Shown piece by piece: positions 32,806 through 50,122 of a stretch of 64,000 nucleotides of DNA. The number at the start of each line of letters is the position of its first letter. Positions within the stretch are counted from its first letter, which is position 1. The notes beneath the pieces are model-generated. The model was not told the DNA's origin, ran no database searches, and was given only the letters and a program-made list of their open reading frames with translations. The stretch comes from Vibrio lentus (lineage in GTDB: Bacteria > Pseudomonadota > Gammaproteobacteria > Enterobacterales > Vibrionaceae), in the NCBI RefSeq assembly GCF_002875945.1, contig NZ_MCZK01000160.1:1-64000 (forward strand), given 5' to 3'. The position numbers were made by a program, and so were the translations under genes.

Positions 32806-33240
32806 TTAGTCTTCTGAATCTCTTAGAGGCACGACCAGCATATCAACCGGAGAGGCGTTGATCAGTTGTCGTGTTGATGAAAGTAGCTTGCTCCAGAAAT
32901 CTTGATGGTGACCACAAACCACTAAATCAACATTGAACTCATTGATGGTGTCACACAGCTCATGGCTCAGGTCGCCACTGCCCACTAAGGTGTGGGTGAT
33001 AGGGTATTGAGCATGTTCAGCAAAATTTTGCAGCTGAACTCGAGACGCTTCCATCGCGTTATGCTGAGTTTCTGCCATGTTGATGTCGATAAGGCCGGTA
33101 TACAGCTCGGCATAGTTAATATCAATATGGATAAAAGAGACTTTTGCCTCCAATGGCTTAGCCAGTGCTACCGCTTTATCGACAATCAATTTACTGTCAT
33201 CAGATAAATCGACCGCAACCAAAATATGTTTGTAACTCAT
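32806..33240 (-). CDS. uspA: Universal stress protein A
   Basis: A 144-residue cytoplasmic stress protein nearly colinear with E. coli UspA: MSYKHILVAVDLSDDSKLIV, VSFIHIDINYAELYTGLIDI, YPITHTLVGSGDLSHELCDT, VVCGHHQDFWSKLLSSTRQL and VDMLVVPLRD. It supports survival under growth arrest and other stresses. It is divergent from ftnA, with uspB just beyond; in E. coli uspA and uspB are directly divergent, so ftnA is inserted between them here. Confidence 0.96.
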   Translation of the reverse strand: MSYKHILVAVDLSDDSKLIVDKAVALAKPLEAKVSFIHIDINYAELYTGLIDINMAETQHNAMEASRVQLQNFAEHAQYPITHTLVGSGDLSHELCDTINEFNVDLVVCGHHQDFWSKLLSSTRQLINASPVDMLVVPLRDSED

Positions 33241-46191: not shown

Positions 46192-46220
46192 TTGACTATT
46201 AAATGAGAATCATTATTATT
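46192..46220 (+). promoter_or_regulatory. ryhB promoter overlapped by Fur box 2
   Basis: -35 TTGACT (46192-46197), a 16-nt spacer and -10 TATTAT (46214-46219) predict a start near 46227. AAATGAGAATCATTATTATT (46201-46220) closely follows the Fur consensus and covers the spacer and -10, so Fur-Fe would block RNA polymerase. Confidence 0.8.
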
Positions 46221-46226
46221 AACTTC

Positions 46227-46447
46227 GTCTTAGGGAATGAGGAAATGTTCACAAGGATGTTAAGTACTCAAGTATCTACTTGGCTACCCAACAGAATTCT
46301 CGCGAACTTGTACTAAGTTCTTTTTGACACGACATTGCTCACATTGCTTCCAGTGTAATTTATAGCTTTTAGGTAAAGCTGTGATATTCAATTTGAATAG
46401 CTTTACCGGTTTTTGCTAGGCGACATCTTCGGGTGTCGCTTTTTTTA
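46227..46447 (+). ncRNA. ryhB: RyhB, Fur-repressed small RNA
   Basis: A small RNA of about 221 nt made in iron limitation; it pairs with and silences mRNAs of iron-using proteins through Hfq. The enterobacterial RyhB pairing core is present as GACATTGCTCACATTGCTTC at 46331-46350. It ends at a terminator, GCGACATC-TTCG-GGTGTCGC plus TTTTTTT (46420-46447). The length fits the long Vibrio form rather than the ~90-nt E. coli form. It lies between a GNAT gene and polA. The start is predicted from the promoter; the end is seen directly. Confidence 0.93.
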
Positions 46448-46515: not shown

Positions 46516-46742
46516 TTTTCCACAATCCAAGATCGAGAAAAGATCGTTGATCATATGTTCGATCTGTAAATTAGTTCTTTATTTTCATGTATTTATATCT
46601 GTTTTTTGCTTGGCTTAGTCGAGTTCTCAACAGGGTGGATAAATAATATAAACAGAGTTATCCACAGATGGGCCTTGTCGCGGAACAAAAAATAACAATA
46701 AATTGATTACAACGAACACAATCGAGTCAACGGATAAGGATC
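46516..46742. other. DnaA-box and GATC cluster upstream of polA
   Basis: A perfect DnaA box TTATCCACA at 46658-46666 sits within ACAGAGTTATCCACAG, the same 16 bases that surround box R4 of E. coli oriC as I recall it. One-mismatch boxes are at 46634-46642 (TTATCCACC, reverse strand) and 46516-46524 (TTTTCCACA). Four GATC sites lie within 34 bp (46531, 46542, 46549, 46561), and a fifth at 46739. GATCTGTAAATTA followed by an AT-rich stretch resembles an oriC 13-mer region. The chromosome origin is not expected here, so a DnaA-titrating or DnaA-regulated site, perhaps for polA, is more likely. Confidence 0.55.
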
Positions 46743-46817
46743 GACAACGTAGAATCCAATTAGCAGACGTGGCATCCTTAACAGATTATTTCTGTACTTA
46801 CTGGATACACAAACATT

Positions 46818-49616
46818 ATGGCTCGTATTCCTGATAATCCATTGATCCTGATCGATGGCTCTTCTTACCTATATCGCGCGTTCCATGCTTACCCTGGCAC
46901 CATGAGTAATGGTGATATCCCAACCAATGCTGTTTATGGCGTGGTTAACATGCTGCGCAGCATGATGCGTCAATTTGCTTCTGATCGTATTGCGGTTATT
47001 TTTGATGCGAAAGGGAAAACGTTCCGTGATGATATGTACCCAGAGTACAAAGCAAACCGTCCACCAATGCCTGATGATCTTCGTTGTCAGATCGAGCCGC
47101 TGCACAACGTAATTCGTGCAATGGGTCTACCGCTTATCTCTATCCCTGGCGTAGAAGCCGATGACGTGATTGGTACGCTGGCTTCTCAAGCTTCCGCGAT
47201 GGGCATGCCTGTTCTTATCAGTACTGGCGATAAAGATATGGCCCAACTGGTTGATGAGAACGTTACTTTGATCAATACCATGACTAATGTCGTGATGGAT
47301 CGTGAAGGCGTCATCGAGAAGTTTGGTATCCCACCTGAGTTGATCATCGATTACCTTGCTCTAATGGGCGATAAAGTCGATAACATCCCAGGTGTTCCGG
47401 GTGTGGGTGATAAGACAGCAACGGCATTACTGCAAGGTATTGGTAGCATCGAAAAGCTGTATCAAAACCTTGATGATATTGCGGCGCTTGGTTTCCGTGG
47501 TTCGAAGACGATGGCTAAGAAGCTGGCTGATAATAAAGCCAATGCTGACATGTCTTACGAACTTGCGACGATTAAACTCGATGTTGAATTAGAAGACACG
47601 CCAGAGTCTCTTGTTAAAGCACAACCAAATACTGATGAACTCATTAAGCTATATGGCCAATTGGTCTTCAAATCTTGGCTGAACGAGCTACTTGAAGGTG
47701 GCAGTGGCGTAGTTGAAGCTGATGAGAAATCTGGCTCGGTACGCAGCAGCACGGCATCAACCACCTCTACCGTAGAAATGAATACCTCTGCAGTGACGAT
47801 TGACCGTAGCAACTACGAAACGATTCTAGATGAAGCGTCATTCAATGTTTGGCTAGAGAAGCTCAAAGCCGCAGACGTGTTTGCCTTTGATACCGAGACT
47901 GACAGCCTAGATTACATGGTCGCTAACCTTGTGGGTCTATCATTCGCAACGGAAGAAGGCGTAGCCGCTTACGTGCCTGTCGCTCATGATTACTTAGACG
48001 CACCACAACAGTTGGATCGTGATTGGGTGCTTGAGCAGCTGAAACCGATTCTAGAAGATGACGCACAAGCAAAAGTGGGTCAAAACCTGAAGTACGATAT
48101 GAGTGTGTTAGCGCGCTACGGTATCGAGATGAAAGGCATTAAGTTCGATACCATGTTGGCGTCATACGTTTTCAATAGCGTAGGTGGCAAGCATGACATG
48201 GACAGCCTAGCGCTGCGTTTCCTACAACACAGCTGCATCTCATTTGAGCAAATTGCAGGTAAAGGTAAGAAGCAACTGACTTTCAACCAGATTGAGCTAG
48301 GTGAAGCTTCTCCATATGCTGCGGAAGATGCTGACGTGACTTTACGTCTTCATAACCGCCTGATGGAAAACATCGAGAAAGATGAAAAGCTAAAATCGAT
48401 CTATGAAGAGATCGAGGTGCCGCTGATTCCTGTGATGTCTCGCATTGAGCGCACCGGTGTATTCATCGACGACATGTTGTTGGGAGCTCAATCGCAAGAG
48501 ATTGCGGTTCGTCTTGATGAGCTAGAACAAAAAGCTTACGAGATTGCAGAGCAAGAGTTCAACATGAACTCGCCAAAACAGCTGCAAGCGATCTTGTTCG
48601 AAAAGATGGGTCTGCCTGTTATCAAGAAAACGCCTTCTGGTGCCGCTTCGACCAACGAAGAAGTGTTGCAAGAGCTAGCGTTGGACTACCCATTGCCTAA
48701 GCTGATCATTGAGTATCGTGGCCTAGCGAAACTGAAGTCGACTTACACTGATAAGCTGCCGAAGATGATCAACGCTGAAACAGGTCGTGTTCATACGTCT
48801 TACCATCAAGCCGTGACCGCGACGGGCCGTTTGTCTTCGACCGATCCAAACCTACAGAACATCCCAATTCGTAATGAAGAAGGTCGTCGTATCCGCCAAG
48901 CATTCGTTGCACAACATGGTTGGAAGATCCTAGCGGTCGATTACTCTCAAATTGAATTGCGTATCATGGCGCACCTATCCGGTGATAAAGCATTACTGGA
49001 AGCATTCCAACAAGGCAAAGATATCCACGCGGCAACCGCTGCTGAGATCATTGGCGTTGATATTGAGAGTGTGACCACTGAACAACGTCGTCGTGCTAAG
49101 GCTGTTAACTTTGGTCTTATCTACGGCATGAGTGCCTTTGGTTTGGCTAAGCAGCTGGGTATTCCTCGTGGTGAAGCGCAGCACTACATGGATACTTACT
49201 TCGAACGCTACCCTGGCGTTATGCAGTACATGGAAGACACTCGCAGCGCTGCTTCAGAGCAAGGCTTCGTTGAAACCATTTACGGTCGTCGTTTGCATCT
49301 TCCTGAAATCCAATCTCGTAATGGCATGCGTCGTAAAGCCGCTGAGCGTGCGGCGATCAATGCGCCAATGCAAGGTACGGCGGCGGACATCATCAAGAAA
49401 GCGATGTTGTTAGTGGATGAGTGGATTCAAGCCGAAGGCGATGGTCGTGTGAAGCTATTGATGCAAGTACACGATGAATTGGTATTTGAAGTTCAAGAGT
49501 CAGCTTTAGCCGAAATTGAAAGTAAAGTACAACAATTGATGGAGTCAGCCGCTGATCTAGAAGTACCGTTAGTCGCGGAAGCAGGCCACGGTGACAACTG
49601 GGATCAAGCCCACTAA
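46818..49616 (+). CDS. polA: DNA polymerase I
   Basis: A 932-residue repair and Okazaki-fragment polymerase. The N-terminal 5' nuclease (about 1-295) has [27 protein letters not shown] and GVEADDVIG. The 3'-5' exonuclease (about 325-520) keeps the catalytic DxE in [12 protein letters not shown], so proofreading is intact. The polymerase domain has [16 protein letters not shown], the finger helix [19 protein letters not shown], and [10 protein letters not shown]. It lies downstream of RyhB and a DnaA-box cluster, with Spot 42 following, as in E. coli. Confidence 0.98.
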
Positions 49617-49678: not shown

Positions 49679-49791
49679 GCCTCGAATAAAGTTGAGTTGT
49701 AGAAAGGGTTTAGGTGTTTTAATAAAACATTCATGAAAAAAAACTACAAAAAATGTTTTCATTTCTGAGCAATTGTTGTACATTAAATCTC

Positions 49792-49896
49792 GTAGGGTAC
49801 AGAGGTAAGATGTTCTATCTTTCAGACCTTTTGTTTCACGTTATTGGATTAGGCTGATTCAGCCGCCCCAGCCAGCATTTGGCTGGGGCGTTTTTT
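49792..49896 (+). ncRNA. spf: Spot 42 RNA
   Basis: A small RNA of about 105 nt that represses catabolic mRNAs in E. coli. The 5' end GTAGGGTACAGAGGTAAGAT and the following TTCTATCTTTCAGACCTTTT are nearly identical to E. coli spf, and it ends with the terminator GCCCCAGCCAG / TTGGCTGGGGC plus TTTTTT. Location just downstream of polA is also conserved. CRP control is known in enterics; I did not find a clear CRP site here. Confidence 0.96.
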
Positions 49897-50122
49897 CTTG
49901 TGCGAAAGAAAAATATTTCCAACCTATAATTCCCTCGTTAATCGGCTTCTTTTTAGTACCTTTTCTATTCTTCTCGAAACCTTCTCTCTATCACTGGATT
50001 TGTCTTAAATCTGGAATTTGATCAGCAATTGGTAATTTAAATCCGTCTCTAAGTGGATTGTTTTATTGTTGGAAATAACTTTTATTTTACAAGTTACTCA
50101 TAATGCATTGATCATTTACGTC
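49897..50122. other. AT-rich spacer between Spot 42 and the minus-strand hypothetical
   Basis: No gene or RNA family recognised. T-rich stretches with a small AATCCG/GGATT hairpin; probably only 3' flanks. Confidence 0.4.

Follow-up and report, generated by a model that had tools for sequence, protein, structure and literature searches.

The window, by which we mean the whole 64,000-nucleotide stretch of Vibrio lentus DNA analysed here, contains a segment (46516-46742) that lies between the ryhB small RNA and polA, which encodes DNA polymerase I. The polA gene was recognised as an open reading frame (ORF) that aligns with E. coli polA, and several V. splendidus and V. tasmaniensis records match the N-terminus of its product at 100% identity. 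On the other side, ryhB was assigned through Rfam (RF00057, 73.9 bits), and a terminator scan places a terminator-like stem between it and the DnaA element; a sigma-70-like promoter and a terminator accompany ryhB within 46192-46447. A 42-bp piece of the ryhB core matches three Vibrio conjugative plasmids, which suggests the existence of plasmid-borne ryhB-like RNAs; plasmid copies of the polA element were considered and rejected, since these three matches cover the ryhB core only. The Spot 42 RNA (Rfam RF00021) is found 3' of polA at 49782-49897, and is a neighbour of polA in E. coli too. Inside 46516-46742 there is no ORF of at least 60 aa in the ORF list and no Rfam family at gathering score, which bears out the preliminary description in that no gene explains the segment; a small RNA was likewise rejected as its explanation, as Rfam gives no match there. 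The features of the locus are given below, with negative positions counted from the perfect proximal DnaA box as coordinate zero, and with conservation counted over the 145 Vibrio loci that have this box.

46323-46388, forward strand: core of the ryhB small RNA, upstream of the element and outside it
46418-46441: terminator-like stem parting ryhB from the DnaA element
46516-46524, forward strand: distal DnaA box TTTTCCACA, one mismatch, 142 bp upstream of the proximal box
46531-46534: GATC at -127, 15 bp from the distal box, kept in 134 of 145 loci
46542-46545: GATC at -116, 26 bp from the distal box and 11 bp past the first GATC, kept in 137 of 145 loci
46549-46552: GATC at -109, inside TTGATCAT, kept in only 42 of 145 loci
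46561-46564: GATC at -97, kept in 103 of 145 loci
46583-46595, forward strand: IHF-like site TTTCATGTATTTA at forward -75, two mismatches to the consensus WATCARNNNNTTR
46634-46642, reverse strand: middle DnaA box TTATCCACC, one mismatch, in moderately conserved alignment columns
46646-46666, forward strand: proximal double DnaA box ATATAAACA-GAG-TTATCCACA, with a 3-bp spacer
46770-46778, forward strand: extended -10-like motif TGGCATCCT, putative core of the polA promoter
46818-49616, forward strand: polA, DNA polymerase I, 932 aa, presumed target of the element

The perfect DnaA box TTATCCACA, at 46658-46666 on the forward strand, forms half of the proximal double box, which reads ATATAAACAgagTTATCCACA as one sequence. 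This box had been reported previously together with one-mismatch boxes at 46516 (forward) and 46634 (reverse), and all three were confirmed in the sequence, as were GATCTGTAAATTA, starting at 46561, and the four GATC sites within 34 bp (46531, 46542, 46549 and 46561); a fifth GATC of the segment lies at 46739. The 16-base identity to E. coli oriC given in the preliminary description also holds, as ACAGAGTTATCCACAG is the same as the oriC double box tabulated in PMC11317965 (Table 1). Concerning chance expectation, the window has one perfect DnaA box against 0.45 per 64 kb in simulation, and one-mismatch boxes are not enriched in it (20 against 15.7 expected, with 15 of 100 shuffles reaching 20), while four GATC sites in 34 bp, a grouping that the window has once, turned up in 2 of 200 simulated windows. 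Three further one-mismatch boxes at 33084-33184 were dropped, as they lie inside an ORF read as a universal stress protein. Judged by sequence statistics alone, the site cluster is no more than suggestive.

The case is carried by conservation and not by window statistics. A match was obtained in 147 of 148 genomes of the genus and all 147 polA upstream regions were taken; the perfect TTATCCACA is present in 145 of them, 95-189 bp before the polA start. Of these 145 loci, 143 have a TTNTCCACA box at exactly -142 and the other 2 have it at -141, and GATC sites recur at -127 and -116 at the frequencies given above, so that the check proposed in the preliminary description, conservation of boxes and GATC spacing across Vibrio genomes, yields strong conservation of both. 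GATC density is 79.9 per kb in -133..-90, whereas farther upstream, in -600..-160, it amounts to 1.8 per kb. The same holds for the best 80 of 492 relatives found, a set whose species overlap with those of the 147 genomes, where the 142-bp spacing and both GATC sites (-127, -116) appear in 80 of 80. In the Vibrio alignment columns, AACAGA followed by the proximal box is nearly invariant. Over -100..-25 the DNA between the boxes has a median pairwise identity of 45%, and among the 145 loci 33 different distances from the proximal box to the ATG occur. Given this fixed geometry across the genus, a chance cluster was rejected. The two loci without the perfect box (L146 and L147) come from genomes assigned to the genus whose sizes are 1.1 and 1.0 Mb; these have polA without DnaA boxes or GATC cluster.

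The interval between the boxes was compared with the IHF consensus, which is confirmed in PMC4585315. Matches with at most one mismatch occur there in 114 of 145 Vibrio elements, against approximately 66 in shuffles, and the best ones pile up at forward -75, where 76 of the 145 loci have at most one mismatch and 27 have at least three; a reverse site at -87 is less frequent (15 of 145). Outside the genus, reverse sites at -87/-86 with at most one mismatch are found in 23 of 57 loci, compared to a mean of 0.24 per position and strand, and the best -86 site of the E. coli record has two mismatches. Hence IHF probably occupies the DNA between the boxes. The IHF literature examined makes, in the passages available, no mention of polA as an IHF target.

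Beyond the genus, the analysis covers 73 distinct loci, namely 20 from other Vibrionaceae genera (taken from 50 genomes), 52 belonging to further families of the same order and a single E. coli record, after removal of five duplicate loci. The 52 were chosen from the 175 non-Vibrio genomes that gave a polA match, 12 as the best matches and 40 spread over families. Of the 73 loci, 46 have a partner box 141-147 bp away: 18 of 20 in other Vibrionaceae, and 28 of 53 farther away, these being from nine families (f2, f7, f10, f11, f13, f16, f19, f21 and f25) and from E. coli, where the partner lies 141 bp upstream of the proximal box. In f12 and f17 the boxes of the pair are 116-132 bp apart. The sampled polA loci show one box alone in f6 and f27, at most one in f8 and f9, and no DnaA box in f4, f5, f15, f18 and f26; the element is therefore widespread and not universal. 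GATC enrichment within it is strong in Vibrionaceae, f2, f11 and f19 and absent in f7, f10, f12, f16 and f17, though these keep the box pair. The element adjoins polA in every case examined, while the upstream neighbour of the gene differs, being ryhB here and yihG in E. coli.

Between the proximal box and the ATG, 144 of 147 Vibrio loci carry the pattern TGGCATN[CA]T; over all loci the count is 193 of 225, with the five duplicates still included. A consensus scan gives no sigma-70 promoter at this extended -10-like motif. The family-unique distances from box to TGGCAT group at 46-50, 59-62, 69-74, 79-86, 90-94, 100-103 and 112, with isolated values of 40, 56 and 65 outside the groups, and are periodic at 10.5-11 bp, which is about one DNA turn. 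Periodicity was assessed with a Rayleigh test against a jitter null that preserves the broad distance distribution. All family-unique values give R 0.45 at a period of 10.9 (n=63, jitter p 0.0002), those outside family f1 give p 0.001 (n=43), and all matches with zero exclusions give p 0.00025; the control, the distance from box to ATG, shows no periodicity (n=54, p 0.74). Weaker values are obtained for pooled unique distances (p 0.029), without f1 and f7 (p 0.02) and for f7 alone (p 0.03), and significance is not reached for the best 80 of 492 relatives alone (n=14 unique values, p 0.34) or for values above 112 bp alone (n=7, p 0.11). The test used 116 of 157 match rows, the other 41 repeating a family and distance already included; 16 rows were left out as not being at polA, partly by contig and partly by eye, and one row (G495, 128 bp, with a second upstream box) was left out of the n=63 and n=43 tests. 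It should be noted that the register was first seen in an exploratory look whose genomes are shared by the later pattern searches, which are not an independent replication, and that the p values are guides, as the genomes are related and the sets overlap. With this reading of the p values, the proximal box is in register with the polA promoter-like motif, at p 0.0002 to 0.001 in the main sets and without significance in some subsets.

In E. coli, DnaA has a preference for paired boxes separated by 2-3 bp, such as those at polA, datA, oriC, purH, nrdD and rpoH, and the polA double box is occupied by DnaA, with a ChIP coverage of 123 over control (PMC11317965, Table 1). DnaA is reported as an activator of E. 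coli polA in stationary phase (PMC8203912, citing Quinones 1997), so the link between DnaA and polA is itself already known, while the mechanism of transcription activation by DnaA is described as poorly understood (PMC11317965). The distal partner box is absent from Table 1 of that work, and the literature searched, in which Quinones 1997 was not covered, contains no description of the distal box, of the fixed spacing across families, of the IHF-like site or of the helical register.

Taken together, this stretch of some 150 bases is likely to be a DnaA cis-regulatory element of the polA promoter, probably bent by IHF and possibly subject to Dam/SeqA timing in Vibrionaceae, through which the replication initiator would control a repair polymerase. 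DnaA would bind the proximal double box, as it does at the equivalent E. coli site, and would also contact the distal box, 142 bp upstream and in the same orientation. With the intervening DNA bent, most likely through IHF at the conserved site near -80, both contacts would join into a looped complex, and such a complex would explain why the length is kept despite the drifting sequence. Complete turns of the helix would separate the DnaA complex from a weak extended -10-like promoter (TGGCATNCT), a placement from which it could act on RNA polymerase. As to the sign of regulation, activation is reported for E. coli and would by analogy apply to Vibrio. The pair of GATC sites one turn apart by the distal box could, in Vibrionaceae, add a SeqA reset after fork passage, or could alternatively serve as weak ATP-DnaA contacts. 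Transcription is the first choice because polA is adjacent in every case and the box is in register with the promoter-like motif. Among the candidates put forward in the preliminary description, a DnaA-controlled polA promoter is thus favoured by the linkage to polA in distant families, the double box and the helical register, and a site for coordination of chromosomes I and II is disfavoured by the -109 GATC, which is poorly kept.

The rival explanations assign other roles to the same parts. A locus of the datA or DARS kind would use a DnaA/IHF complex to switch the nucleotide of DnaA or to titrate DnaA, polA being a mere neighbour. The parts are those of E. coli datA, where DnaA boxes surround an IHF site and their spacing is important (PMC10380432, PMC4585315), 19 bases (TAAACAGAGTTATCCACAG) are identical to the datA double box, and polA is among the near-origin E. 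coli DnaA boxes discussed in relation to titration (PMC12371093). The box-IHF-like-box design is present at polA, but its box orientation and spacing are unlike those of datA, it is in helical register with a promoter-like motif of polA, whereas datA is not a promoter element beside that gene, and it accompanies polA across many families with varying upstream neighbours. In position, too, the element is at polA and not between the tRNA-Gly genes and queG, as datA is, and a different double box lies beside queG in this genome. In DARS, a core made up of three DnaA boxes brings about the release of ADP from DnaA; the location of DARS, upstream of uvrB or mutH, is not that of the polA element. 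A datA- or DARS-like locus therefore appears unlikely, and the likeness of design to datA means that a side role in DnaA control may be open to the polA element. One could accordingly imagine, as a rather improbable extension, an ancient device with two jobs, in which the IHF-bent DnaA complex, constant in length, would set polA transcription and would also act on DnaA by holding it or switching its nucleotide, with a SeqA reset in every cycle at the phased pair of GATC sites in Vibrionaceae; if so, the supply of Pol I would be coupled to the activity of the initiator at a single locus that replicates early.

Timing by Dam and SeqA is a different matter, being compatible with the DnaA-controlled promoter and not opposed to it. 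Here hemimethylated GATC sites would recruit SeqA after the fork, block DnaA and shut polA for part of the cycle. This is consistent with the steep local rise in GATC density, with the two near-invariant positions 11 bp apart, with the presence of a SeqA gene in this genome and with the GATC-rich elements of f2, f11 and f19. However, f7, f10, f12, f16 and f17 keep the box pair without enrichment, and Dam/SeqA control is hence not general; the earlier suggestion of such control is plausible within Vibrionaceae and does not extend to all families. AGATCT is an ATP-DnaA hexamer, and contacts of this type would equally explain the conserved GATC sites; this role of AGATCT was not found in the literature passages searched. 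We regard Dam/SeqA timing as a tentative possibility. Far less probable is an RctB site for coordination of chromosomes I and II, similar to crtS. E. coli has one chromosome, and the box pair occurs there as well. One GATC does lie inside TGATCA, the fixed core of RctB iterons, but TGATCA alone is insufficient, a single RctB site is reported on chromosome I (PMC3937223), and the TGATCA-like GATC at -109 is kept in the small fraction of Vibrio loci listed above; lacking a conserved RctB recognition sequence, this explanation was rejected. A cryptic or secondary replication origin would account for the co-occurrence of DnaA boxes, GATC sites and AT-rich DNA, and is equally improbable to the point of rejection, given that the Vibrio alignment shows no conserved columns of AT-rich unwinding repeats beside the boxes, that the tandem boxes are in register with a promoter-like motif and that conservation is tied to polA. 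The "oriC-like" label used at the outset was thus right about the parts and wrong about the function.

A fixed-length DnaA/IHF-like module present in Vibrio, E. coli and other families makes the activation of polA by DnaA testable. If action is helical, a 5-bp insertion would break regulation and one of 10 or 11 bp would not, and both the distal box and the bend would matter. The distribution of the module also speaks for a link between the initiator and the supply of Pol I that predates the enteric bacteria.

The double-box pattern ACAGASTTATCCACA occurs five times in this genome, and a reversed-pattern control has no match. One is the site at polA, one falls between rpoH and glpE, one precedes nrdD, and the remaining two are next to queG and cysH, respectively, these names other than polA being read from translations alone. 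E. coli datA adjoins queG, and if the queG site is datA, four of the five correspond to E. coli ChIP loci (polA, rpoH, nrdD, datA). The site beside the putative queG (L152, G000:C122:51264-51278) has a double box, TATAAACAGACTTATCCACA, followed 19 bp further by a perfect box in reverse orientation, and is a candidate Vibrio datA. The one near the putative cysH (L151, G000:C122:420-434) has no counterpart in the available part of the E. coli ChIP table. Between the ORFs read as rpoH and glpE (L149, G000:C15:14456-14592) there are two perfect boxes, TTATCCACC and several GATC sites; a similar pair with 131-bp spacing was seen by eye in at least 15 of 41 Vibrio genomes, and may be another DnaA control locus.

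Among known systems, the V. cholerae crtS site resembles the polA element in being a conserved intergenic site of chromosome I, there with a role in replication control (PMC3937223), and differs from it in that the polA element has no conserved RctB motif and is also found in E. coli. The region of oriC box R4 shares the 16 bases round the perfect box, with GATC and an IHF-like site nearby, whereas the polA element has no conserved unwinding repeats, carries a tandem instead of the full box set and is tied to a gene promoter. The 3-bp double-box form of the Vibrio proximal site is that of E. coli polA, datA, oriC and purH (PMC11317965, Table 1). Compared with E. coli polA, the Vibrio element has a weak upstream half-box (ATATAAACA), TTTTCCACA as its distal box, GATC sites flanking that box and an IHF-like site mostly in the opposite orientation; the two have in common the gene itself, the 3-bp double box, which reads TTATGCACAaagTTATCCACA in E. 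coli, a distal partner, placed 141 bp upstream there, and TGTGGCATCC before the ATG.
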